21,968 bases of DNA from positions 1-21,968 of IMG/VR virus record IMGVR_UViG_3300027777_000173, one strand, 5' to 3'. Made by a program: the position numbers and the translations under genes. The notes below the pieces were generated by a model that was given only the letters and a program-made list of their open reading frames with translations, did no database searches and had not been told where the DNA came from. This DNA is from a virus. Shown here one piece after another: positions 1-17,622 of this stretch (its first letter is position 1; each line of letters begins with the position of its first letter).

Positions 1-491
1 GCTTGGCCAGTCTTGTTTCCCGGCATCGAGGGCGAGTAGAGAACCCGGCCCATCTCGTCTTGGGTCTTTTCGAGCTTGGCGCTCATGTAGACGTGGCGGC
101 CGGGCAGGTCGCGGAAGGCTCGGATAATGTCCGCCATTTGCTCCTGCATCGCGCCGTAGGCGGCGCGTGGGTCTTTGTTGCTTTTTTTCTCGGCGTTCAG
201 GACAACCTCGGCAATCTCGCTGATGCTGTCCAGCGCCACCGATTGATAGTCCTTGGCCTCGTGGCTGTCGCGAAGCCAAGAGTAGGCCTCCATCAGGGTG
301 GCCATTGAGGTAACCTCAATGTAGGGCAGGTTTGCATCCTGAATGCTCAGGAGCCCGCCTTCGGCGCTCAGAATGATGGGCGCTGGCAAGGTTGCCGCCA
401 GGGTGGTCTTGCCTGCGCCTGCTTGGCCGTAGACAAGGAGCTTGGCGCCGTTTGACGCCAGGGTGGCGGTGGTTTTTAGGTTGATGCTCAT
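1..491 (-). CDS. Sak4-like / AAA_24 phage ATPase (3' end outside window)
   Basis: This is an ATP-binding protein of the phage RecA-like AAA_24 (Sak4-like) type, a family linked to single-strand annealing and recombination during phage replication. About 163 residues are visible from the ATG at 491 (minus strand) and the frame runs open off the left edge, so the C-terminus is missing. A Walker A motif GQAGAGKT lies at residues 22-29 and a Walker B-like stretch SVALDSISEI around residues 84-93, with D88 as the likely Mg-binding aspartate. A family-typical segment with AEGGLLSI follows the Walker A strand. The start codon overlaps the stop of the upstream DUF1874 gene as ATGA (488-491), so the two are probably translationally coupled. 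The family call rests on the motif pattern from memory. A RecA-like or DnaB-like ATPase of another subfamily is possible but less likely. Confidence 0.8.
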   Translation of the reverse strand, partial: MSINLKTTATLASNGAKLLVYGQAGAGKTTLAATLPAPIILSAEGGLLSIQDANLPYIEVTSMATLMEAYSWLRDSHEAKDYQSVALDSISEIAEVVLNAEKKSNKDPRAAYGAMQEQMADIIRAFRDLPGRHVYMSAKLEKTQDEMGRVLYSPSMPGNKTGQ

Positions 492-805
492 GCTGTCTCT
501 CCATCAGCGGCCAGCGAGACGCTGACCCATTCGAACGAGCTGCCCTCGGGCAGTACGGTGGTCCCCTCTGGGAGCCGCGACCCCTGCAGCTGGGCAACGT
601 ACATCCAGTCGCCGACCGCCAACTTGACGCTGATGCGGTTCATCGGCACGCCCAAGAGGGCGGCGGTGTCGGTGTGGCCGACGGCGCTGGTGTAACGACC
701 AGCCGCCAATGTGCGCTCGGGGCGCTGGCAGGGTGCAAACCGCACCCGGTGAAGATCAGCTGGGGCGACCATGCCCAGGCTGAATGAGTTTGCGATATAA
801 ATCAT
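488..805 (-). CDS. DUF1874 protein, AcrIII-1-like viral ring nuclease (putative anti-CRISPR)
   Basis: A 105-residue protein resembling the DUF1874 family (STIV B116, SIRV1 gp29). SIRV1 gp29 is AcrIII-1, which cleaves the cyclic tetra-adenylate messenger of type III CRISPR and shuts off the defence. The N-terminus MIYIANSFSL matches the family's YLANAFSINML. The core SAVGHTDTAALL carries H44, equivalent by my alignment from memory to catalytic H47 of SIRV1 gp29. MNRISVKL supplies R57 (R66 equivalent), and RLPEG supplies R77 and E80 (R85 and E88 equivalents). N6 and S9 match N8 and S11. Length fits the family (about 110). It sits in the middle of a minus-strand cassette with ATGA overlaps on both sides (802-805 and 488-491), typical of early genes. 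The family call is strong. The enzymatic role is inferred, since some DUF1874 members are uncharacterised. Confidence 0.86.
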   Translation of the reverse strand: MIYIANSFSLGMVAPADLHRVRFAPCQRPERTLAAGRYTSAVGHTDTAALLGVPMNRISVKLAVGDWMYVAQLQGSRLPEGTTVLPEGSSFEWVSVSLAADGETA

Positions 806-990
806 TGCTGCTTGACTCCAAAAATTGCGTCAATCAGGGCATTGCTGCCCTTAGAGTTGGGGAAGCGCTTTGCGTAGGCTGCGCGCTGGGCAGCCTCGCG
901 TGCGGCCTTTTCGGCCTGAAATGCTGCAAATGCAGCATCGCCCCGCGCCTTCTCGGCGGCTTGAGCAGGGGTTAGGGTTTTGCGTGACAT
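802..990 (-). CDS. Small Ala-rich helical protein, unknown function
   Basis: A 62-residue protein that I do not recognise. It is rich in Ala, Lys, Glu and Arg and looks almost wholly alpha-helical (residues about 8-42), with no transmembrane segment or Cys motif. The ATG at 990 is preceded on the minus strand by AGAGGA four bases upstream, a good ribosome-binding site, which supports it as a real gene and as the first gene of the minus-strand cassette. Its stop overlaps the start of the AcrIII-1-like gene as ATGA at 802-805, so it is probably co-translated with it. In early phage cassettes such small proteins are often host-takeover or defence-modulating factors, but nothing in the sequence shows a function. 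Confidence 0.65.
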   Translation of the reverse strand: MSRKTLTPAQAAEKARGDAAFAAFQAEKAAREAAQRAAYAKRFPNSKGSNALIDAIFGVKQQ

Positions 991-1068
991 GAAATCCTCT
1001 TACGTTTAGCACTCGTCGGGAAGTCCGTTCAGTGCATGGATAGCATCCTACACCATCTTTTCGACTTG

Positions 1069-1077
1069 TGGTATACT
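1069..1077 (+). promoter_or_regulatory. Candidate extended -10 promoter for the HTH/primase operon
   Basis: TGGTATACT fits an extended -10 box (TGn followed by TATACT) about 40 bases before the HTH gene start. I see no good -35 at the usual distance, which is tolerable for extended -10 promoters. GTATAC at its centre is palindromic. It lies in the 128-base gap (991-1118) between the divergent minus-strand cassette and the plus-strand operon. I could not identify a convincing matching promoter for the minus-strand genes. Confidence 0.4.
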
Positions 1078-1118
1078 TTTTTTCAATCTTCACCAACTTT
1101 TTTTCAGGAGTACGCTTT

Positions 1119-1310
1119 ATGATGACGATTGAGCAGATCATCGCCGGGCTGCAAGACCGCAAGGTTCGGGTCGTTGCAGCGGCCACCGGCCTGCACTACA
1201 GTACCGTGCTTGCCCTCCAGCGAGGTCGCAGCAAGAGACCCCGCATCACCGCGATACAGCGGTTGTCGACCTATCTATCCAAGGCACCAGCCAATGGCAG
1301 ACCTGACTAG
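1119..1310 (+). CDS. Small helix-turn-helix DNA-binding protein
   Basis: A 63-residue protein whose centre, about residues 16-50, reads as a phage Cro/C1-type helix-turn-helix: VRVVAAATGLHYSTVLALQR, then a basic RSKRPR linker and ITAIQRLSTYL. I chose the ATG at 1119 because CAGGAG lies eight bases upstream. The longer reading from 1068 would need an unsupported hydrophobic N-terminus overlapping the promoter. It is the first gene of the rightward operon and its end overlaps the primase-helicase start by 17 bases. Standing next to a divergent gap, it could repress or activate either direction. Whether it acts as a lysis-lysogeny regulator cannot be said, because no integrase or second repressor is visible. 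Confidence 0.7.
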   Translation: MMTIEQIIAGLQDRKVRVVAAATGLHYSTVLALQRGRSKRPRITAIQRLSTYLSKAPANGRPD

Positions 1311-3784: not shown

Positions 3785-4042
3785 ATGCTGCAACCGCTCC
3801 ATGATAAGGTAGTTATTAAGCCGAATACTCGGCAACTATCTGATATTATTATTACCAATAATAAAGAACCGTTTAATGAAGGTACGGTCGTGGCTGTTGG
3901 GCCGCTTGCGCTGGACGTGCAAGTGGGGGATTTTGTAAAGTATGGTAATGGCGACTATTTGAAATGGCCGACGCATAAGGTAGATGGTCAGGATTATCAG
4001 ATTATTCAAGAAGCTGATATTTGTGCTATTGTTGAGCATTAA
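3785..4042 (+). CDS. groES: GroES-type co-chaperonin
   Basis: An 85-residue protein with the full GroES fold signature. PLHDKVVIKP opens the first strand, a mobile-loop region spans residues about 17-32, EGTVVAVGP follows, then VQVGDFVKYGNGDYLKW, and the ending QIIQEADICAIVE is the family's final strand. It is slightly shorter than bacterial GroES (about 95), as in many phage versions. Phage co-chaperonins such as T4 gp31 bind host GroEL and help fold the major capsid protein. Here the likely client is the coat protein at 10547-11794, an inference from the P22 literature on GroEL-dependent coat folding. The gene is visibly more A+T-rich than its neighbours, hinting at separate acquisition. 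Confidence 0.9.
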   Translation: MLQPLHDKVVIKPNTRQLSDIIITNNKEPFNEGTVVAVGPLALDVQVGDFVKYGNGDYLKWPTHKVDGQDYQIIQEADICAIVEH

Positions 4043-4466: not shown

Positions 4467-4625
4467 ATGCCGCTTATGAAGTCAGCAAGCCCCAAGGCCT
4501 TTGGCAAGAACGTCAAGGCCGAGATGAAGGCGGGCAAGCCTGTGAAGCAGGCTGTGGCCATCGCCTACTCGGAAAAGCGTGAGGCCGAGAAGGGCCGCAT
4601 GTCTGAGAAAAAAGAGAAAAAATGA
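4467..4625 (+). CDS. Small basic DUF6496-like peptide
   Basis: A 52-residue Lys-rich protein starting MPLMKSASPKAFGKNV, continuing with a KAEMKAGKPVKQAVAIAYS core and ending in a charged KEKK tail. This is the pattern of the DUF6496 family, small proteins common in tailed phages and of unknown function. It begins two bases after the preceding stop and ends in an ATGA overlap (4622-4625) with the ParB-domain gene, so it is clearly part of the same operon. The strong positive charge could reflect nucleic-acid binding, but that is only inference. Confidence 0.72.
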   Translation: MPLMKSASPKAFGKNVKAEMKAGKPVKQAVAIAYSEKREAEKGRMSEKKEKK

Positions 4626-5128
4626 AGATTGAGCAGCGCCCGGTGGCGGGCCTGATCCCCTACGTCAACAACAGCCGCAAGCACAGCGATGAACAGGTCG
4701 CTCAGATAGCGGCCAGCATCAAGGAGTTTGGGTGGACCAACCCTATCCTGGTGGATGGTGCCAACGGCATCATTGCCGGGCATGGGCGCTTGATGGCGGC
4801 TCGCAAGCTGGGCATGGAGGCCGTACCAGTCATTGAGTTGGCGCACCTATCCGAGCCGCAGCGCAAAGCGCTCATCATTGCCGACAACAAGCTGGCAATG
4901 AATGCGGAGTGGGACAACGATCTGTTGATGCTGGAGCTGGGCGAGTTGCTCGAGGGCGGGTTTGATCTTGATTTGCTGGGATTTGGGAAGGACGAGCTTG
5001 ATGCGCTGATGAAAGAAATTAATTTTGCCCCTGCTACAGAGGAAGAACAGGGCAAATTGGACGAATTAGACCCGAAATGGATTGCTTGTCCCCATTGCGG
5101 GAAAGAATTTGATGCAAGACAAGCCTAG
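4622..5128 (+). CDS. ParB/Srx-domain protein with C-terminal CPHCG zinc knuckle
   Basis: A 168-residue protein. Residues about 3-100 form a ParB-like (ParB/sulfiredoxin superfamily) domain: an opening RPVAGLIPYVNNSRKH, the phosphate-binding GHGR at 53-56 inside IIAGHGRLMAARKLG, and ALIIADNKLAMNAEWD at about 83-98. In many phages this domain is fused to, or next to, a DNA methyltransferase that it may guide. Here no methyltransferase follows. Instead the protein ends with IACPHCGKEF (CPHCG at 156-160), half of a possible zinc site, and its last codons overlap the Mom-like gene by 17 bases. It could act as a DNA-binding or NTP-dependent partner of the modification enzyme. That role is inferred from context. 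Confidence 0.8.
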   Translation: MKIEQRPVAGLIPYVNNSRKHSDEQVAQIAASIKEFGWTNPILVDGANGIIAGHGRLMAARKLGMEAVPVIELAHLSEPQRKALIIADNKLAMNAEWDNDLLMLELGELLEGGFDLDLLGFGKDELDALMKEINFAPATEEEQGKLDELDPKWIACPHCGKEFDARQA

Positions 5129-5831
5129 CCTAAAAATTGATTGGGCTAGCCACGATGCGGCTAAGTATGCTTGCATTAACTGGCATTACAGTAAAGCAGT
5201 GCCGATGCCGCCTATTGTAAAAATAGGGGTATGGGAAGACAATAAGTTTATCGGTGTTGTTTTGTTTTCACGAGGCGCAAGCCCGATGCTGGGTGCAGCT
5301 TACGGACTTACACAAACTGAATGCTGTGAATTAACAAGAGTTGCATTAACTAAACACACGACACCTGTATCAAAAATAATTAGTATTGCAATTAAATTCT
5401 TAAAGAAAAACAATAAAGGTATTAGGTTAATTGTGAGTTTTGCAGATCAGATGCAAGGTCACCACGGCGGAATTTATCAAGCTGGCGGATGGATATATTC
5501 AGGTACTTCAAATGAAAGTTTTGAATACATCGGTCCAAACGGAAAGAAATATTTACAAAGACAAGTCGCTGAATCGGGGTTTGTAAAGCAATTTGGGAAA
5601 ACAACAAAAGTTTTTAAAAGAAGCGAGTGCGTTGCTGTTCCTGTTTTGGGCAAGCACAGATACCTGATGCCACTTGACAAGATGATGAGTGCTAAGATCG
5701 CACCACTAGCAAAGCCTTATCCAAAGCGTGAGAAGCAGGCGATGGTCGATTCCCTCGACACAGCGGCGGTGCGTCACCGACCCTCACGCTCCAATTCAAC
5801 AATGCTTGAGTGCGACACTTTGCCTCAATAA
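5112..5831 (+). CDS. mom: Mom-like DNA modification protein
   Basis: A 239-residue protein resembling phage Mu Mom, a GNAT-fold enzyme that converts adenines in phage DNA to a carbamoylmethyl form and protects it from restriction. Family-like stretches are INWHYSKAVPMPP (residues about 18-30), a KFIGVVLFSRGASP strand, ECCELTRVAL, then LIVSFADQMQGHHGGIYQA and GGWIYSG. I start at the ATG at 5112 rather than the TTG at 5082, since GGGAAAG lies upstream at a usable distance and the Mom fold begins right after. The gene is clearly more A+T-rich than its surroundings, suggesting recent acquisition. It overlaps the ParB gene by 17 bases. The last 50 or so residues look unlike the rest (see findings). 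Confidence 0.8.
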   Translation: MQDKPSLKIDWASHDAAKYACINWHYSKAVPMPPIVKIGVWEDNKFIGVVLFSRGASPMLGAAYGLTQTECCELTRVALTKHTTPVSKIISIAIKFLKKNNKGIRLIVSFADQMQGHHGGIYQAGGWIYSGTSNESFEYIGPNGKKYLQRQVAESGFVKQFGKTTKVFKRSECVAVPVLGKHRYLMPLDKMMSAKIAPLAKPYPKREKQAMVDSLDTAAVRHRPSRSNSTMLECDTLPQ

Positions 5832-5834
5832 AAG

Positions 5835-6179
5835 ATGCTACCCCACGAACCCACCGAGAAAACCCGCTCCCAGGCCCAATCCGCAGCAGGCCTGGGGCTG
5901 CCGCATGAGCAGATCGGCGCTCTGCTGGGCATCAGCGATGTGACCCTGCGGAAATACTATGACGTTGAGCTGGCGCTTGGGAAAGCCACGGCCAGCGCTA
6001 GTATTGCCAAGACGCTATTTAACAAGGCGATGGCGGGCGATACCACGGCGATGATCTGGTGGACCAAGGCGCAGATGGCCTGGGGCGAAACGAATACCAC
6101 CAAGCTGGCGAACCCGGACGGCACGCCCATCGAGGGCATAATGGTTTCGTTCGTCAAGGCCAATGAGCCAAGCACTTAA
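5835..6179 (+). CDS. HTH protein, probable terminase small subunit
   Basis: A 114-residue protein with a helix-turn-helix at about residues 13-40 (AQSAAGLGLPHEQIGALLGI then SDVTLRKYY), resembling sigma70 region 4-like folds. An Ala-rich helix follows (TASASIAKTLFNKAM), and GDTTAMIWWTKAQMAWGETN is a family-typical segment. Proteins with this pattern directly upstream of terminase large subunits are commonly taken as the small subunit that recognises the packaging site. Its end overlaps the large subunit start by 17 bases. A weak AAAAG directly precedes the ATG. Position and fold support the call. The pac or cos site cannot be seen, and a regulatory HTH role remains an alternative. Confidence 0.68.
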   Translation: MLPHEPTEKTRSQAQSAAGLGLPHEQIGALLGISDVTLRKYYDVELALGKATASASIAKTLFNKAMAGDTTAMIWWTKAQMAWGETNTTKLANPDGTPIEGIMVSFVKANEPST

Positions 6180-7440
6180 CAAGGCCATTAGCCTGGCAGA
6201 GTTTCCGGAGAAACTCGCCTGCCTATTCGAGCCATCCCGCTACAAGGTACTCTACGGCGGGCGAGGCGGTGCCAAGTCTTGGGGTATTGCTCGAGCCCTG
6301 CTTATCCTCGGCGCCAAGTCCCCGCTGCGCATCCTGTGCGCTCGAGAGTTTCAGACCAGCATCAAGGATTCTGTTCACAAGCTGCTCTGCGACCAAATAG
6401 AGGCGCTGGGCTTGCTTGGGTTTTACGAGATCACCCAAGCGTCCATTCGCGGCAAGAACGGCAGCGAGTTTGCCTTTGCTGGCCTGCGCAACAACATCAG
6501 CAACATCAAATCATTTGAAGGAGTGGATATTTGCTGGGTCGAAGAAGCGCAGTCGGTCAGCCGCCTGTCGTGGAATGTCCTGATACCAACTATTCGAAAG
6601 GCGGGCAGCAGCATCTGGGTGAGCTTCAACCCGGAGCTTGAGACCGACGAGACCTATCAGCGTTTTGTTCTCAAGCCACCCGCCGACTGCGTAATTCGCA
6701 AGGTGAACTGGTCCGACAACCCTTGGTTCCCTGAGACGTTGCGGCTGGAGAAGGACGCGCTCAAGGAACGGGACATTGAGTCCTATAACACCGTGTGGGA
6801 GGGCATCTGCCGCCAGACGGTGGACGGTGCTATCTTTGCCCGCGAAATGCAGATGGCCGAGCTACAGGGCCGGATTACGACTGTCAACTACGACCCCAGC
6901 AAACCAGTTCATGCGGTGTTCGACCTTGGCTGGTCAGATTCAACGGCAATCTGGTTTCTCCAGTTTGTTGGCATGGAGACCCGGCTTATCCGTTACCTTG
7001 AGGACAACCAGCGCACCATCAGCCACTATTTGTCTGAGATGCAGACATTTGGTTACGTCTACGACACCCTATGGCTACCCCATGATGCTCAAAACCAGAC
7101 CCTGGCGGCTGCGGGTCGTTCCATTGAGGACATTGTTCGATCTGCTGGATACAAGGTCAATATTATTCCTCGTGTGCCGATACCAGACAGTATCAATGCC
7201 GCTCGCACAATCTTTCCGAACTGCTGGTTTGACAGAGAGAATGCGGCGGATGGGATTTCGTGCCTGCGCCACTACCGATATGATGTAGACCCCGAGACCG
7301 GCGGATTCAGCAAGCAGCCGCTGCACGATCACTACAGCCACGGCGCGGACGCATTCAGGTACATTGGCCTGATGGTCAACGAGCCTCGCAAGGCTAAAAA
7401 GAAAGCAACCTTTTCGTTGCCAGCAAATTGGATGGGATAG
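6163..7440 (+). CDS. terL: Terminase large subunit (PBSX/Terminase_3 type)
   Basis: A 425-residue packaging motor protein. The ATPase half has Walker A GGRGGAKS at 32-39, Walker B VDICWVEEAQ at 121-130 with E127/E128 as catalytic candidates, and a coupling segment WVSFNPELETDE at 152-163. The nuclease half has VFDLGWSDSTAIW (D254, D259), LWLPHDAQ (D308) and a C-terminal HDHYSHGADAFRY (388-400) with D396, which together fit the RNase H-like metal site. Length fits the PBSX-type family (about 420-440). It would pump DNA into the procapsid through the portal encoded next and cut the concatemer. All visible key residues are intact. Confidence 0.93.
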   Translation: MSQALNKAISLAEFPEKLACLFEPSRYKVLYGGRGGAKSWGIARALLILGAKSPLRILCAREFQTSIKDSVHKLLCDQIEALGLLGFYEITQASIRGKNGSEFAFAGLRNNISNIKSFEGVDICWVEEAQSVSRLSWNVLIPTIRKAGSSIWVSFNPELETDETYQRFVLKPPADCVIRKVNWSDNPWFPETLRLEKDALKERDIESYNTVWEGICRQTVDGAIFAREMQMAELQGRITTVNYDPSKPVHAVFDLGWSDSTAIWFLQFVGMETRLIRYLEDNQRTISHYLSEMQTFGYVYDTLWLPHDAQNQTLAAAGRSIEDIVRSAGYKVNIIPRVPIPDSINAARTIFPNCWFDRENAADGISCLRHYRYDVDPETGGFSKQPLHDHYSHGADAFRYIGLMVNEPRKAKKKATFSLPANWMG

Positions 7441-7442
7441 CA

Positions 7443-9548
7443 ATGTACTACTCTGACAACGATGTAAGCCCCGACAAGCGCATTGATGCGGCAATCAAGT
7501 TCCTGCGACTGGCGGGTGACTCCGACTCCACGAACCGTGCTGACGCGCTGGACGATCTGAAGTTTGCCGCCGGAGATCAATGGCCGGTGGAGATTCAGAA
7601 CAGCCGCAACCTTGACGCCAGGCCGTGCCTGACCATCAATAAGATTGACGCCTACGTGCGCCAGGTGACGAACCAGCAGCGTCAGCAGCGGCCCAGGATC
7701 AAAGTCCACCCCACCAACACCCAGGCCGACGCCAAGATTGCGCAGACGCTTGAGGGGATCACCCGGCACATCGAGGAGAACAGCAATGCCGACACAGCGT
7801 ATGACAACGCATTCGACTATGCGGTGCGCATGGGCTGGGGTTACTGGCGAATCATCACGGATTACGTGCGCGAGGACTCGTTCGACCAGGAAATCTACAT
7901 ACAGCCTGTCGACAACCCGTTTACTGTTTACTTCGACCCCAATAGCGTGTTGCCGGACGGCTCAGACGCCGAGCAGTGCCTGATTACTAGCGTGATGCCC
8001 AAGGCGGTGTTCCGCGAGATGTATCCCGGCGCGGATGATGGCGCCAACTTCTTGCAGCGCAGCACGGGCGACGATAGTGCTGACTGGGTGATGACCGAGG
8101 ACATTCGGATCGCCGAGTATTTCCACATTGAGCGCGTCAAAACCAAGCTGTTGATGCTTTCAGATGGCACCAAAATCTACAAGGATGAGCTGCCCAGCGA
8201 CGAGTTCTTGGCGTTGGCCGGGATCACCATCGTTGACGAGCGGCCCAGCTATCGCAAAGTGGTCAAGTGGTGCAAGCTGACCGCGATGGAAGTGTTGGAG
8301 GAAAAGGACTGGCCAGGCCGGTATATTCCGGTTGTGCCGGTTTACGGTCAGCAATTAATCGTTGAGGACAAGCGCAAGAAGTTCGGCCTGGTGCGGTTTG
8401 CCAAAGATCCGCAGCGCATGTACAACTTCTGGCGCACCAGCATGACCGAAAGCATTGCGCTGGCGCCGAAGGCCAAGTGGCTGTTGGCGGAAGGCCAAGA
8501 CGAGAACCACGAAGACGAATGGGCGCAGGCCAACATCAAGTCCAGCCCTGTCCTGCGCTACAAGCAGACCGACATTGACGGCAGGCTAGCCCCGACGCCC
8601 ACCAGACTGCAACCCGAGCCGCCGCCTGTTGGCGTGATGAGCGCCGCCGAAGCTATCAATTCTGACCTTCAGATGGTCCTGGGCATCACCGATCCTAACC
8701 AGCTGCCGAGCGGCAACATCAGCGGCAAGGCGCTCAACGGCCAGCAGCAACAAGTTGATCTAAGCAACTTCCATTACTTCGACAACCTGACCCGCTCAAT
8801 CAAGCACACCGGCAAGATTCTGTTAGACCTGATCCCCAAGATTTACGACACCCAGCGCGTGATGCGGATCATTGGCGAGGATGGTCAGCCGGACATGGTC
8901 ACCATCAACGAGCAGGGCCAAGACGAATACGGCGTCCAGAAGGTCTTGAACGACGTCACAGTGGGCGAGTACGACGTGGTGATGGACAGCGGGCCAGGCT
9001 ACATCAGCAAGCGGATGCAGGCCGTGGATTCCATGATGCCGTTGTTGGCTGGCAACCCTGATTTGTTCAAGCTGGCGGGCGATCTGGTGTTTAGGAATAT
9101 GGACTTCCCCGGCGCCGAGGTCATTGCCGACCGCCTGGCGGCAAGCAACCCGCTGGCGCAAATTGATAAGAAATCACCGATCCCGCCGCAGGTACAGATG
9201 CAGCTTGCACAGAGCAAGGCACAGATTGAGCAGATGACCCAGCAGATGCAAGCGATGCAATTGGAGATCAACAACCGCGCTCAGGTTGCCCAAATCCGCG
9301 AGGAAGGCGCTACCAAGCGCACGCTGATGCAGGTAACGGCCAAGGCCCACGAGACCGAGTCCAGTAATGCCGAGAAGCGCAACACCGAAGAAATGAAGAT
9401 CAGCGGTCGCGCTAACGAGACCGTTATTGAAAGCAATACCCGGCTACAGATTGAGCACATCAAAGGCCAGCTAGCGCTCATGCTGGCGGACATTGACAAA
9501 AGCACCATGCACACCAGCACTGGCGAGGCTATTGAGCGAGCAATCTGA
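7443..9548 (+). CDS. P22-type portal protein
   Basis: A 701-residue portal, close to P22 gp1 (725). Family-typical segments include RPCLTINKIDAYVRQVTNQQ, AFDYAVRMGWGYWRI, PFTVYFDPNSVLPDGSDAEQ, YIPVVPVYGQQLIVEDKRKK and SGKALNGQQQQVDLSNFHYF. The protein ends in a long Gln/Glu/Lys-rich helix (roughly the last 115 residues), as in the P22 portal, whose C-terminal helices form a barrel in the capsid that senses packaging. I start at 7443 because GGATGGGA lies a few bases upstream. An in-frame ATG at 7428 would add five residues and overlap terL by 13 bases, but has no ribosome-binding site. The portal is the ring at the packaging vertex, joining terminase during packaging and the gp4-like adaptor afterwards. 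Confidence 0.93.
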   Translation: MYYSDNDVSPDKRIDAAIKFLRLAGDSDSTNRADALDDLKFAAGDQWPVEIQNSRNLDARPCLTINKIDAYVRQVTNQQRQQRPRIKVHPTNTQADAKIAQTLEGITRHIEENSNADTAYDNAFDYAVRMGWGYWRIITDYVREDSFDQEIYIQPVDNPFTVYFDPNSVLPDGSDAEQCLITSVMPKAVFREMYPGADDGANFLQRSTGDDSADWVMTEDIRIAEYFHIERVKTKLLMLSDGTKIYKDELPSDEFLALAGITIVDERPSYRKVVKWCKLTAMEVLEEKDWPGRYIPVVPVYGQQLIVEDKRKKFGLVRFAKDPQRMYNFWRTSMTESIALAPKAKWLLAEGQDENHEDEWAQANIKSSPVLRYKQTDIDGRLAPTPTRLQPEPPPVGVMSAAEAINSDLQMVLGITDPNQLPSGNISGKALNGQQQQVDLSNFHYFDNLTRSIKHTGKILLDLIPKIYDTQRVMRIIGEDGQPDMVTINEQGQDEYGVQKVLNDVTVGEYDVVMDSGPGYISKRMQAVDSMMPLLAGNPDLFKLAGDLVFRNMDFPGAEVIADRLAASNPLAQIDKKSPIPPQVQMQLAQSKAQIEQMTQQMQAMQLEINNRAQVAQIREEGATKRTLMQVTAKAHETESSNAEKRNTEEMKISGRANETVIESNTRLQIEHIKGQLALMLADIDKSTMHTSTGEAIERAI

Positions 9549-9609: not shown

Positions 9610-10527
9610 ATGTCGGAAGTGCAGGAACGGTTGGCCGCTAACGTGGTCACCAGCGAAAATCTAGCCGAGTTCAACTCGCAACGTCTAAACCTAGCTAATC
9701 GTGAGACGCCAGCTGCGGCTGCTGAGGAAACTCCAGCAGAGCCGGTTGAAGTCACCGAGCAGAGTGGGCAAGACGGCGATGAGAAGGAAGCGACAGCAGT
9801 AGAAGAAAACAGCAAGCCTAATAAGCTGGAGAAGCGATTTACGGCACTGACCAAGCAACGCGAAGAAGCCCGGCAAGAAGCCGAGCGGGAGCGGGCGGCT
9901 AGGGAGATCTTGGAGTCGAAGGTCAGGGAACTTGAAGGACGCAGCAGGCCGCAGGTAGAGCCAGCAGCAACCACCGAGGAACCCCATCCTAGCCAGTTCT
10001 CTGATGCGTTTGAGTACGCAAAAGCACTGGCGGAATACTCCACTGAGCGGGCGTTACGGAATCGAGACAGGCAAGACGCAGAGCGCAAGGCGGCAATTGA
10101 GCGGGACAAGGTCATTGAGACTTGGAACACCCGGCTGTCGGCGGCTAAGGCAGAGCTTCCTGATTTCGATGACATGGTGGCATCCAGCGACGTACAGGTC
10201 AGCGACCAGATACGGGACGCGATACTTGACAGCGATGTGGGACCAAAAATCCTGTATCACCTGGCCGAGCACACCGATCTGGCAACGAAGTTGGCAGGAA
10301 TGTCCACCGCAAACGCTCTGCGAGAGATAGGCAAGCTTGAGGCACGGTTTGAGGCGAAAGCCGAAACCAAGCCGCTTTCTACCGTTGGCAGGTCCAAGGC
10401 GCCACCACCGATCAACCCCATCAGGGGCGGCGGGACTGGCACCGATGTAAAAATTGACAGCAACGGCGAGTTTCACGGCGATTACCAATCTTGGCGAGCC
10501 GCGAGAATGGCCGGAAAAATCCGATAA
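9610..10527 (+). CDS. Scaffolding-like protein
   Basis: A 305-residue, strongly acidic and helical protein between portal and coat, the place of the scaffold gene in P22-like phages (P22 gp8 is 303 residues). The N-terminal third is Glu-rich and disordered-looking. Residues about 70-125 form a predicted coiled coil rich in Glu, Arg and Ala. The C-terminal part includes an AAKAELPDFDDMVA segment typical of phage scaffold-like proteins and a basic tail (RAARMAGKIR) that could contact coat. It would direct coat assembly into a procapsid and leave before packaging. TGAGGT lies five bases before the ATG. The 61-base gap before it contains one GGGTAC element (9578) within a CCGG inverted pair, possibly a regulatory site. 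Family assignment rests on position, size and composition. Confidence 0.75.
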   Translation: MSEVQERLAANVVTSENLAEFNSQRLNLANRETPAAAAEETPAEPVEVTEQSGQDGDEKEATAVEENSKPNKLEKRFTALTKQREEARQEAERERAAREILESKVRELEGRSRPQVEPAATTEEPHPSQFSDAFEYAKALAEYSTERALRNRDRQDAERKAAIERDKVIETWNTRLSAAKAELPDFDDMVASSDVQVSDQIRDAILDSDVGPKILYHLAEHTDLATKLAGMSTANALREIGKLEARFEAKAETKPLSTVGRSKAPPPINPIRGGGTGTDVKIDSNGEFHGDYQSWRAARMAGKIR

Positions 10528-10546: not shown

Positions 10547-11794
10547 ATGGCTAATACCCTGCTTACTATTAGCAAGATCACCAACGAGGCGTTGATGGTC
10601 TTGGAAAACAGCTTGACTTTTACAAGTGAAGTTGAACGGACCTATGACGATCAGTTCGCTGTCGTTGGCGCAAAGATCGGCAATACACTGAACGTCCGCA
10701 GGCCGGGTCGTTTTATTGGTACTACGGGACCTGCCCTCGCCGTCGAAGACTTCAACGAAACGTCGGTGCCAGTAACTTTGTCAACGCAGTTTCATGTCGA
10801 CACACAATTTTCTACCCAGGATTTGGCGCTGTCGTTGGATATGTTTAGTGACCGCGTGCTAAAACCCGCGATTGCAGCCATCGCCAACAAGATCGACCGC
10901 GACGGCCTGGTGATGGCAAAGAACAACACCGCCAACATCGTTGGCACCGCCGGCACCCCGCCAAGCAGCCTTTTGACGTTCCTGAACGCTGGCGCGTATC
11001 TGGACGCCGAGGGCGCGCCTCGCGACGGTCAACGCTCTTGCATCATTGAGCCGTTTACCTCTGCGACCATTGTTGATAGCTTGAAGGGTTTGTTTGTGCC
11101 CAACAATACTATTTCCAGGCAGTTTCAGAAAGGCCTTATGGGAACGGACAGCGCTGGAATGGATTGGAAAATGGATCAGAACGTGGTTAATCAGACGTTC
11201 GGCTCCTACGCCACCACCACGGCGTTTAGCTGCAACACCAGCACCGCCACCGGTTTCCTGACCACCGGCTGGGCTTCGACCTCTACCATCGCGCTTTCTT
11301 GCTCGACGGCAGCCGCGGGTTTGAAGCAGGGCGACGTTATCCAGATTGCCAACGTCTATGCGGTCAACCCGCAGAACCGCCAGGCTTATGGCTCTAACAA
11401 GCTGCGCAATTTCGTGGTCCAGGCCGACGTTACTGTTGCAACCTCTGGCACCACCTCGGTGATCGTCTCCCCGGCGGTTATCACGGCGGGCCAGTTTCAA
11501 AACGTCAGCGTTACCTCGCCAGGCGCATCAACCGTTACGCCTTTCAACAACACCGGCGTGGTCTCGCCGCAGAACATCGTGATGCACAAAAATGCGTTCA
11601 CCATGGCTTGCGCCGACCTCGAGCTGCCTGATGGGGTCCATTTTGCTGGTCGCGCAAGTGACAGGCAGCTGGGTCTGTCCATCCGCGTGGTGCGACAGTA
11701 CACTATCAACAACGATTCGATCCCGACTCGTCTTGATGTGCTGTACGGCTGGGCGCCTTTGTACCCCGAGCTTGCTTGCCGGGTTGCTGCGTAA
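10547..11794 (+). CDS. Major capsid (coat) protein, P22 gp5 type
   Basis: A 415-residue coat protein of the P22 type (gp5 is 430 residues), an HK97-fold subunit. Recognisable features are the start MANTLLTISKITNEALMVLE, TYDDQFAVVGAKIGNTLNVR, a VTLSTQFHVDTQFSTQDLAL strand, DRVLKPAIAAIANKIDRDGL, NIVMHKNAFTMACADLELPD, SIRVVRQYTINNDSIPTRLD and the ending YGWAPLYPELACRVAA. A Ser/Thr/Ala-rich middle part (about residues 210-330) likely forms the inserted domain seen in P22-like coats. AGGA ten bases before the ATG supports the start. It assembles on the scaffold, and the GroES at 3785-4042 may help it fold. It is followed by a hairpin at 11802-11821. Confidence 0.92.
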   Translation: MANTLLTISKITNEALMVLENSLTFTSEVERTYDDQFAVVGAKIGNTLNVRRPGRFIGTTGPALAVEDFNETSVPVTLSTQFHVDTQFSTQDLALSLDMFSDRVLKPAIAAIANKIDRDGLVMAKNNTANIVGTAGTPPSSLLTFLNAGAYLDAEGAPRDGQRSCIIEPFTSATIVDSLKGLFVPNNTISRQFQKGLMGTDSAGMDWKMDQNVVNQTFGSYATTTAFSCNTSTATGFLTTGWASTSTIALSCSTAAAGLKQGDVIQIANVYAVNPQNRQAYGSNKLRNFVVQADVTVATSGTTSVIVSPAVITAGQFQNVSVTSPGASTVTPFNNTGVVSPQNIVMHKNAFTMACADLELPDGVHFAGRASDRQLGLSIRVVRQYTINNDSIPTRLDVLYGWAPLYPELACRVAA

Positions 11795-16065: not shown

Positions 16066-17622
16066 ATGCCAGATTTCGGCTTTGTCGGTCCCAGCTACGA
16101 GGCGCCCAGCATCTATCAAGATGCTCAGGAGTGCATCAACTTTTATCCTGAAGTTGATCCGACAAAGCCGCCTGGCACTCGAGGAATCGTAGCGCTCTAT
16201 CCGACGCCAGGCTACACGATGGTGGCGCAGCTGGAAGTTGGCAAAGTGCGCGGAATGCGGGCGCTCTCTGGCGGGCAATATCTGGTGGTGGTCTCCGGCA
16301 CTTCCGCCTATTCAATGACTTCGGCCATGGTGCCGACGCAAATCGGATTTGTGTCGGGCACTGGCCAAGTTTCCATTTCCGACAATGTGACCATTGCCGA
16401 TGGCCTGACCGCCTACATTGTCAGCGGCGCAGAACGATATACCTGGGTTGCTGCCACCAACGTATTCACGCAACTGCCCGCCACAGACGGCCCATGGCAA
16501 GGCGCCAATGTCTGCGAGGTAGTGGACAACTACAACATCTACAACCAGCCTGGAACGCAGAATTGGGGCGCCACGGACCTTGGCAGCAGCCTGAGCACCA
16601 ACGCCTACTATGGCGCCAAAGATGGCGCACCGGACAATCTGGTGTCTTTGATCGTTGACCACCGCCAGGTCTATCTGCTCGGCGAGTTTACGACTGAGGT
16701 TTGGACCGACATCGGCAACGTAATCCCCGGAATCATCTCCTTTCCGTTTCAGCGCGTCCCCGGCACGATGGTGCAGCACGGCATCGCCGCTCAGTTCTCG
16801 GTGGCCCGGTTCGCCGAGGCGTTCATGTTTGTGAGCCAGGACCAGCGTGGCCAATCAATCATTGGCATGATTGCTGGCTACCAGTTTCAGCGCATCTCAA
16901 CCCATGCGGTCGAGCAATCGCTAGTTGACAAAACGATTTCCGATGCAATAGCTTGGACCTATCAGATCGAAGGCCACGAGTTCTATGTGGTGACTTTTCC
17001 CAGCGCTGATTTGACCTGGGTTTACGACCTGGCGAGCCAGGCTTGGCACAAGTGGCTGTCCTTTGCCGATGGCGAGTTCCATCGCCATCGTTCCAACTGC
17101 GGCACCAACTTTGCTGGCAATATCTTCATCGGCGATTTTGAGAACGGGATGCTCTACAAATTGAGCAACACCGTCTATACCGACGCCGATGCACCCATCC
17201 GCCGCCTGCGCCGAGCGCCGCACCTGACCACCGACCTGCAACGCCAGTACTTTGACGAGTTCCAAATCCAGTTCCAGCCTGGCGTTGGCTTGGCGGGCAA
17301 TGACCCGACAATAACGCTGGAGGCGCTGCTCACCGAGGCTGGTGATGAGTTGTTGACCGAATCCGGCGATACTTTGCTGGCGTCCGTTGCCACTGTGCAG
17401 GGCGTTGACCCGCAGGCTATGCTTCGCTGGAGCAATGACGGCGGCAGCACTTGGTCGAACGAGCATTGGACAAGCATCGGCAAGATCGGGCGCTATCAGA
17501 ACCGCGCTATCTGGCGCCGCCTGGGCATGGCGCGGGATCGCATCTTTGAGGTTTCCATCTCCGATCCCGTCAAGGCAGTGATCGTCTCGGCCAACCTGAA
17601 AGCTTCGGTGGGCGACAACTGA
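16066..17622 (+). CDS. P22 gp10-like packaged-DNA stabilisation protein
   Basis: A 518-residue tail hub protein of the P22 gp10 type (472 residues), which plugs the portal-tail channel and keeps packaged DNA inside. The start DFGFVGPSYEAPSIYQDAQE, followed by CINFYPEVD, is the family's opening. Further marks are VSLIVDHRQVYLLGEFTTEV, MVQHGIAAQFSVARFAEAFM, ISDAIAWTYQIEGHEFYVVT, and the ending with WRRLGMARDRIFEVSISDPV. Around residues 419-438 sits a short insert with repeats LLTEAGDE, LLTESGDT, LLA. Three bases separate it from the gp4-like gene, and its stop overlaps the next ATG (TGATG at 17620-17624). It would join the adaptor ring to the tail needle and fibres. No gp26-like needle gene is visible in the window. 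Confidence 0.87.
   Translation: MPDFGFVGPSYEAPSIYQDAQECINFYPEVDPTKPPGTRGIVALYPTPGYTMVAQLEVGKVRGMRALSGGQYLVVVSGTSAYSMTSAMVPTQIGFVSGTGQVSISDNVTIADGLTAYIVSGAERYTWVAATNVFTQLPATDGPWQGANVCEVVDNYNIYNQPGTQNWGATDLGSSLSTNAYYGAKDGAPDNLVSLIVDHRQVYLLGEFTTEVWTDIGNVIPGIISFPFQRVPGTMVQHGIAAQFSVARFAEAFMFVSQDQRGQSIIGMIAGYQFQRISTHAVEQSLVDKTISDAIAWTYQIEGHEFYVVTFPSADLTWVYDLASQAWHKWLSFADGEFHRHRSNCGTNFAGNIFIGDFENGMLYKLSNTVYTDADAPIRRLRRAPHLTTDLQRQYFDEFQIQFQPGVGLAGNDPTITLEALLTEAGDELLTESGDTLLASVATVQGVDPQAMLRWSNDGGSTWSNEHWTSIGKIGRYQNRAIWRRLGMARDRIFEVSISDPVKAVIVSANLKASVGDN

Follow-up and report, generated by a model that had tools for sequence, protein, structure and literature searches.

A predicted AcrIII-1-type ring nuclease gene in a variable slot beside the Sak4-like gene of a P22-like virus

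Among the means by which viruses counter type III CRISPR immunity, AcrIII-1 is the best known, and its encoding by viruses or other mobile elements sets it apart from the cellular Crn2. The AcrIII-1/Crn2 family (PF08960, formerly DUF1874) consists of fast ring nucleases, specific for cyclic tetra-adenylate (cA4), that switch off type III signalling; in this family cleavage is lost when the His is changed and binding is lost when a Ser is changed (PMC7213978, PMC7293037, PMC12409355). The closest described systems are the AcrIII-1 of the archaeal virus SIRV1 (gp29/ORF114; structures 6scf and 2x4i), the DUF1874 protein of the Thermoanaerobacterium phage THSA-485A (Tsac_2833), which is a tailed-phage member of the family, and the cellular Crn2 of Marinitoga, which is fused to a Csx1 effector (Csx1-Crn2; 8y7f, 8y7g) and limits the cell's own response (PMC7293037). 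Another small ring nuclease acting on cA4, Csx16 (TIGR02620), belongs to type III loci, and when 28,114 phage genomes were surveyed in a study published in 2025, AcrIII-1 was found in no more than 36 (PMC12409355). When a small alignment of the family was run once against IMG/VR, 152 stretches encoding a relative were returned. Enzymes of this type are known already, also from tailed phages; what is new in the locus described here is the setting of the gene, which lies in a swappable slot and is shared, exactly to its ends, with unrelated phages.

The DNA analysed here, hereafter the window, is the whole 21,968-base stretch of the IMG/VR record IMGVR_UViG_3300027777_000173, which is probably a fragment. 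Its plus strand carries, between positions 6163 and 17622, a block of genes running from the large terminase subunit to the head closure protein Hc3. As the terminase subunit matches Terminase_3 and is accompanied by a P22-type portal (7428-9548; phrog_156, E 4e-141), scaffold (9610-10527; phrog_8865), coat or major head protein (10547-11794; phrog_283) and Hc3 (16066-17622; phrog_578), the virus is P22-like, and the label that the first-pass annotation had given it is right by gene content. The nearest records are those of Manatee Spring phages, for which no host is named and whose portal and coat are annotated as P22-like; the portal is 71% identical and the coat gene 73% identical at the DNA level. 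The ring nuclease open reading frame occupies 488-805 of the minus strand, reads from an ATG at 805 to a stop codon at 488-490 and encodes a protein of 105 aa. It stands in the same record as the P22-like structural genes and is thus virus-encoded, as AcrIII-1 is in distinction to Crn2. Relatives of the portal are also found in two other carriers of DUF1874 genes, L106 (47% identity) and L120 (~30%), and the window is therefore not the sole carrier with a P22-like portal (L numbers denote related loci and contigs).

The assignment of this protein to DUF1874, which had been made from the letters alone, was confirmed by profile searches. The protein scores 28.2 bits with PF08960 (E 2e-6), which is above the curated cut-off of 26, and matches phrog_5063 with an E value of 1e-11; by sequence alone it retrieves AFV3-109 from the PDB (E 3e-7). 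When a profile of its relatives was compared with the PDB, the matches were SIRV1 ORF114 (E 5e-13), 6scf, which is SIRV1 gp29 H47A with cA4 (E 5e-11), and again AFV3-109. Identity to characterised members of the family is only ~15-30%. The protein is almost certainly of the AcrIII-1 kind, a known type of enzyme, whose activity it is predicted to share. An AlphaFold model of the monomer, for which both phage-collection rows were left out of the alignment, has a mean pLDDT of 94.2 and a pTM of 0.86. Its best fold match is 6scf (Z 12.1, 98 residues aligned), followed by 2j85 (STIV B116; 11.6), 2x4i (11.4) and 2j6b (AFV3-109; 11.2), and the Marinitoga Csx1-Crn2 entries score somewhat lower (8y7f, Z 10.4; 8y7g, Z 10.0). 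The next different fold reaches a Z of only 2.3, and AcrIII-1/Crn2 structures are thus the sole real fold matches. The comparison with the gp29-cA4 complex that the first-pass annotation had proposed accordingly places the monomer model in the AcrIII-1 fold.

The resemblance to SIRV1 AcrIII-1 extends to the catalytic His, Arg and Glu, the N-x-F-S motif and the size of the viral gene (~110 aa), although the two proteins are only ~21% identical and the window gene is carried by a P22-like bacterial virus. The printed HMMER alignments pair H44, R57, R77 and E80 of the window protein with H47, R66, R85 and E88 of gp29, which are residues of the SIRV1 active site, and N6 and S9 fall within the shared N-x-F-S motif. 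This is the correspondence that the first-pass annotation had given. To place it in the family, related loci were gathered from IMG/VR, a GTDB genome set and phage records, and 108 of them were aligned with the window protein. In the resulting 109 rows, N6 is kept in 106, S9 in 104, H44 in 108, R57 in 107, R77 in 108 and E80 in 107. The near-invariant positions are N6, F8, S9, M12, S40, G43, H44, D46, A48, R57, L62, Q72, G75, R77, L78, P79, E80, G81, L85 and P86. The relatives had been collected with two search motifs, one of which contained H44 and the other R77 and E80. However, the His is kept in 33 of the 34 loci that fail the first motif, and R77 and E80 are both kept in all 22 loci that fail the second and have residues there. 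The conservation is therefore not just a product of the search.

The window protein differs from its archaeal relatives of known structure in the segment between the catalytic His and Arg (H44-R57). This segment is 12 residues long in the window protein and in 73 related loci, 18 residues in 33 loci and 20 residues in one, and no locus has a length between 12 and 18. The long form (18) includes SIRV1 gp29, AFV3-109, STIV B116 and phage THSA-485A, and the window protein is thus six residues shorter than these. The THSA-485A protein is 40% identical and shares the motif G-x-R-L-P-E-G-x-T-x-L-P, but it has the long form and another phage background, whereas the Marinitoga proteins share the fold and the family with its catalytic His but are cellular. 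The profile of the relatives retrieved no structure of the short form from the PDB. The six-residue indel is a clean two-state character that seems to have been gained or lost several times. The possibility that the short form is a single clade is unsupported, as the tree requires at least three changes of form and the best tree nine, with the indel columns kept in the tree. Within this tree the window protein groups, with support of 99/95, with L002, L005-L007, L095 and L097-L099.

The short segment is relevant to the alternative that survives best, namely that the protein is a sponge or acts on another substrate, binding cA4 or another cyclic oligonucleotide, of a different defence system such as CBASS, but not acting as a rapid ring nuclease on cA4. 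A segment of 12 residues, in place of the 18 of the three archaeal structures and phage THSA-485A, could alter the pocket. Moreover, family members occur in bacteria in which we know of no type III system: one is present in Bacillus subtilis, which served as a control and to our knowledge has no CRISPR system, and the family therefore need not always counter type III CRISPR. Against this, the catalytic His and Glu would be dispensable in a pure sponge, yet both are near-invariant, the short forms included, and the characterised members are specific for cA4 (PMC7293037). We consider this alternative unlikely, and a cA4-cleaving enzyme of the AcrIII-1 type is the reading favoured here.

The gene forms part of a leftward operon. 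Its stop codon overlaps (ATGA) the start of a gene for a Sak4-like ssDNA annealing ATPase (3..491, minus strand), which runs off the window and marks one edge of the slot. Its own start is overlapped, again by ATGA, by an upstream partner, UP62, a basic open reading frame of 62 aa (802..990, minus strand). The leader of the operon (991..1067, minus strand) follows; the stretch that the window has in common with its sister phages ends within it at ~1008, which is where the variable slot starts. On the other, conserved side lies a divergent HTH regulator (1068..1310, plus strand), the true start of which may be the ATG at 1120. No consensus promoter was found near the slot in the window.

A search with Sak4 returned 39 phage records in which this protein is 95-99% identical. 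Neither the family model nor the protein used as the query detected the ring nuclease gene in any of these 39 records, many of which are fragments; the search with the protein was added because PF08960 picks up no more than 28 of 37 members of the family at E 0.001. The slot could be read in 37 of the 39 records, where it contains other small open reading frames or is empty. In nine relatives compared at the DNA level, both flanks are 84-92% identical to the window, and the match stops at ~490 and ~1008. The occupants of the slot in these relatives include recurrent families of 73, 51, 53 and 46 aa, and no PHROG name better than E 0.02 was obtained for the alternative open reading frames. In L038 the slot has 84 nt and no open reading frame. 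The slot of L018 (2642-2793) and the window's ring nuclease gene end in the same 30 nt (CGCTGATGGAGAGACAGCATGAGCATCAAC), the rest of the L018 open reading frame being unrelated, and these 30 nt look like a recombination scar, possibly of an earlier copy. The lack of a copy in 39 records with nearly the same Sak4 indicates that the ring nuclease gene is an accessory insert, and for the same reason the earlier proposal of a candidate enzyme for this virus type does not hold for the type as a whole.

The same gene is found in phages of another type. Five contigs (L002-L006, of which L002-L004 are identical where they overlap) encode the ring nuclease with 90-93% protein and ~87% DNA identity, and their DNA match to the window covers 488-808, i.e., the gene and nothing beside it. 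L002 has a different terminase, its 36-kb record contains no relative of the window's portal, and no Sak4 homologue adjoins the gene in any of the five contigs. Between the window and L002 or L005 the dS of the gene is ~0.49, with a dN/dS of 0.10 (L002) and 0.09 (L005), which shows that the gene is maintained under purifying selection. These copies also bear on the second alternative, that the ring nuclease is a housekeeping part of a replication/recombination operon with Sak4. The ATGA overlap with the Sak4 start is as expected of translationally coupled operons, but the near-identical Sak4 genes without a copy, the unrelated or empty contents of the readable slots and the absence of Sak4 next to the gene in L002-L006 render this highly improbable.

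An exchangeable accessory gene is also indicated by UP62, the sole other IMG/VR copy of which was found in L095 (92-95% identical), a locus that likewise carries a DUF1874 gene (~69%). In the gene array of L095, a repeated 70-nt unit composed of a hairpin-like sequence and TTGACA-N16-TATAAT stands between small genes, and the DUF1874 gene itself is preceded by a TATAAT box. Repeated leader- or promoter-like units between small open reading frames were observed in L095 (641-1303), L007 (5332-5826) and L002 (3107-5608). From their sequence we read these arrays as moron-type cassettes, with the units as putative promoters. Based upon its absence from the sister phages, the variability of the slot, the gene-exact sharing and the copy of UP62 in the L095 array, the ring nuclease gene is regarded as a mobile counter-defence cassette. 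A tentative suggestion, which we think rather doubtful, is that the Sak4-side slot and the repeat-bounded arrays of L095, L007 and L002 draw upon one shared stock of counter-defence cassettes, each driven by a promoter, that pass between unrelated phages living in the same waters, the 73-, 51-, 53- and 46-aa slot proteins of the sister phages being inhibitors of host defence as well. Near the DUF1874 genes of L095 (1322-1594) and L007 (6101-6358), very acidic proteins of 85-90 aa (pI ~4.0) without PHROG matches are encoded, which look like candidates for DNA mimics or other inhibitors.

The interpretation that we favour, with a probability of roughly 0.85, is that the gene encodes a viral ring nuclease of the AcrIII-1 type, which is made from the leftward operon in an exchangeable Sak4-side slot and was acquired as a single-gene cassette common to unrelated phages. 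By analogy with the characterised relatives, two copies of the protein would form a dimer whose interface binds cA4. H44 would act as the general acid, together with E80 and the phosphate-binding R77 and R57, in a metal-free cutting of the cA4 ring into two A2>P halves, and with cA4 destroyed the cA4-activated CRISPR effectors would stay off, to the presumed benefit of the phage against type III CRISPR. Expression from the leftward operon would probably be early, and the slot would be a place where this phage lineage swaps small accessory genes. The locus offers a natural contrast, in which nearly identical phages either have or lack the gene, and the gene itself recurs in unrelated phages. 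If the predicted activity holds, this contrast shows how phages become resistant to immunity that works by signalling, and the other occupants of the small slot that it marks are counter-defence candidates open to testing.

The remaining alternative, a Csx16-family ring nuclease, to which the PADLOC Csx16 model points with an E value of 1.5e-5, can be dismissed, as the motifs of real Csx16 (TIGR02620), W-F-V-S/T-R-H-x-G-A and H-L-D, are absent, the profile-profile comparison (hhalign) gives a probability of 0.2% and NCBIfam gives no match. Surveys of ring nucleases in phages can be led astray by this PADLOC model (PDLC01147), which matches a DUF1874 protein. The same applies to PF08960, which misses nine of 37 members at E 0.001 and gave no match when 297 genomes belonging to one class were searched, although tblastn had retrieved a relative from one of them.

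The first-pass annotation had taken the gene to imply type III immunity in the host, a step that goes too far. Among 25 genome bins with a relative, Csm1 was found in five and Cmr2 in two others above the curated cut-offs (7/25, a proportion with no matched background), and the Desulfovibrio bin of L175 contains Csm1 together with the cA4 ring nuclease Csx16. As a link to type III systems these Cas10-type genes are suggestive only, since several of the bins are Patescibacteria and phage contigs may have been misbinned. The window and six related loci were searched for tRNA genes as a clue to the host, and none was found. Assignment of a host from the nearest named phages was rejected, as these are too distant: the Manatee Spring phage, without a host, is followed by Xanthomonas phage PBR31, with a portal identity of 49%.

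Some other genes of the window deserve mention. Mom modifies phage DNA and so shields it from restriction, and a member of the Mom protein family is encoded at 5082-5831 on the plus strand (PF25680, E 1e-46); it is likely a second counter-defence gene in the same virus. Directly upstream of it lies a gene for a ParB-like protein (4622-5128, plus strand; phrog_620, E 3e-62). The window also encodes a GroES co-chaperonin (3785-4042, plus strand; PF00166, E 4e-12), as does the Manatee Spring phage MW202674.
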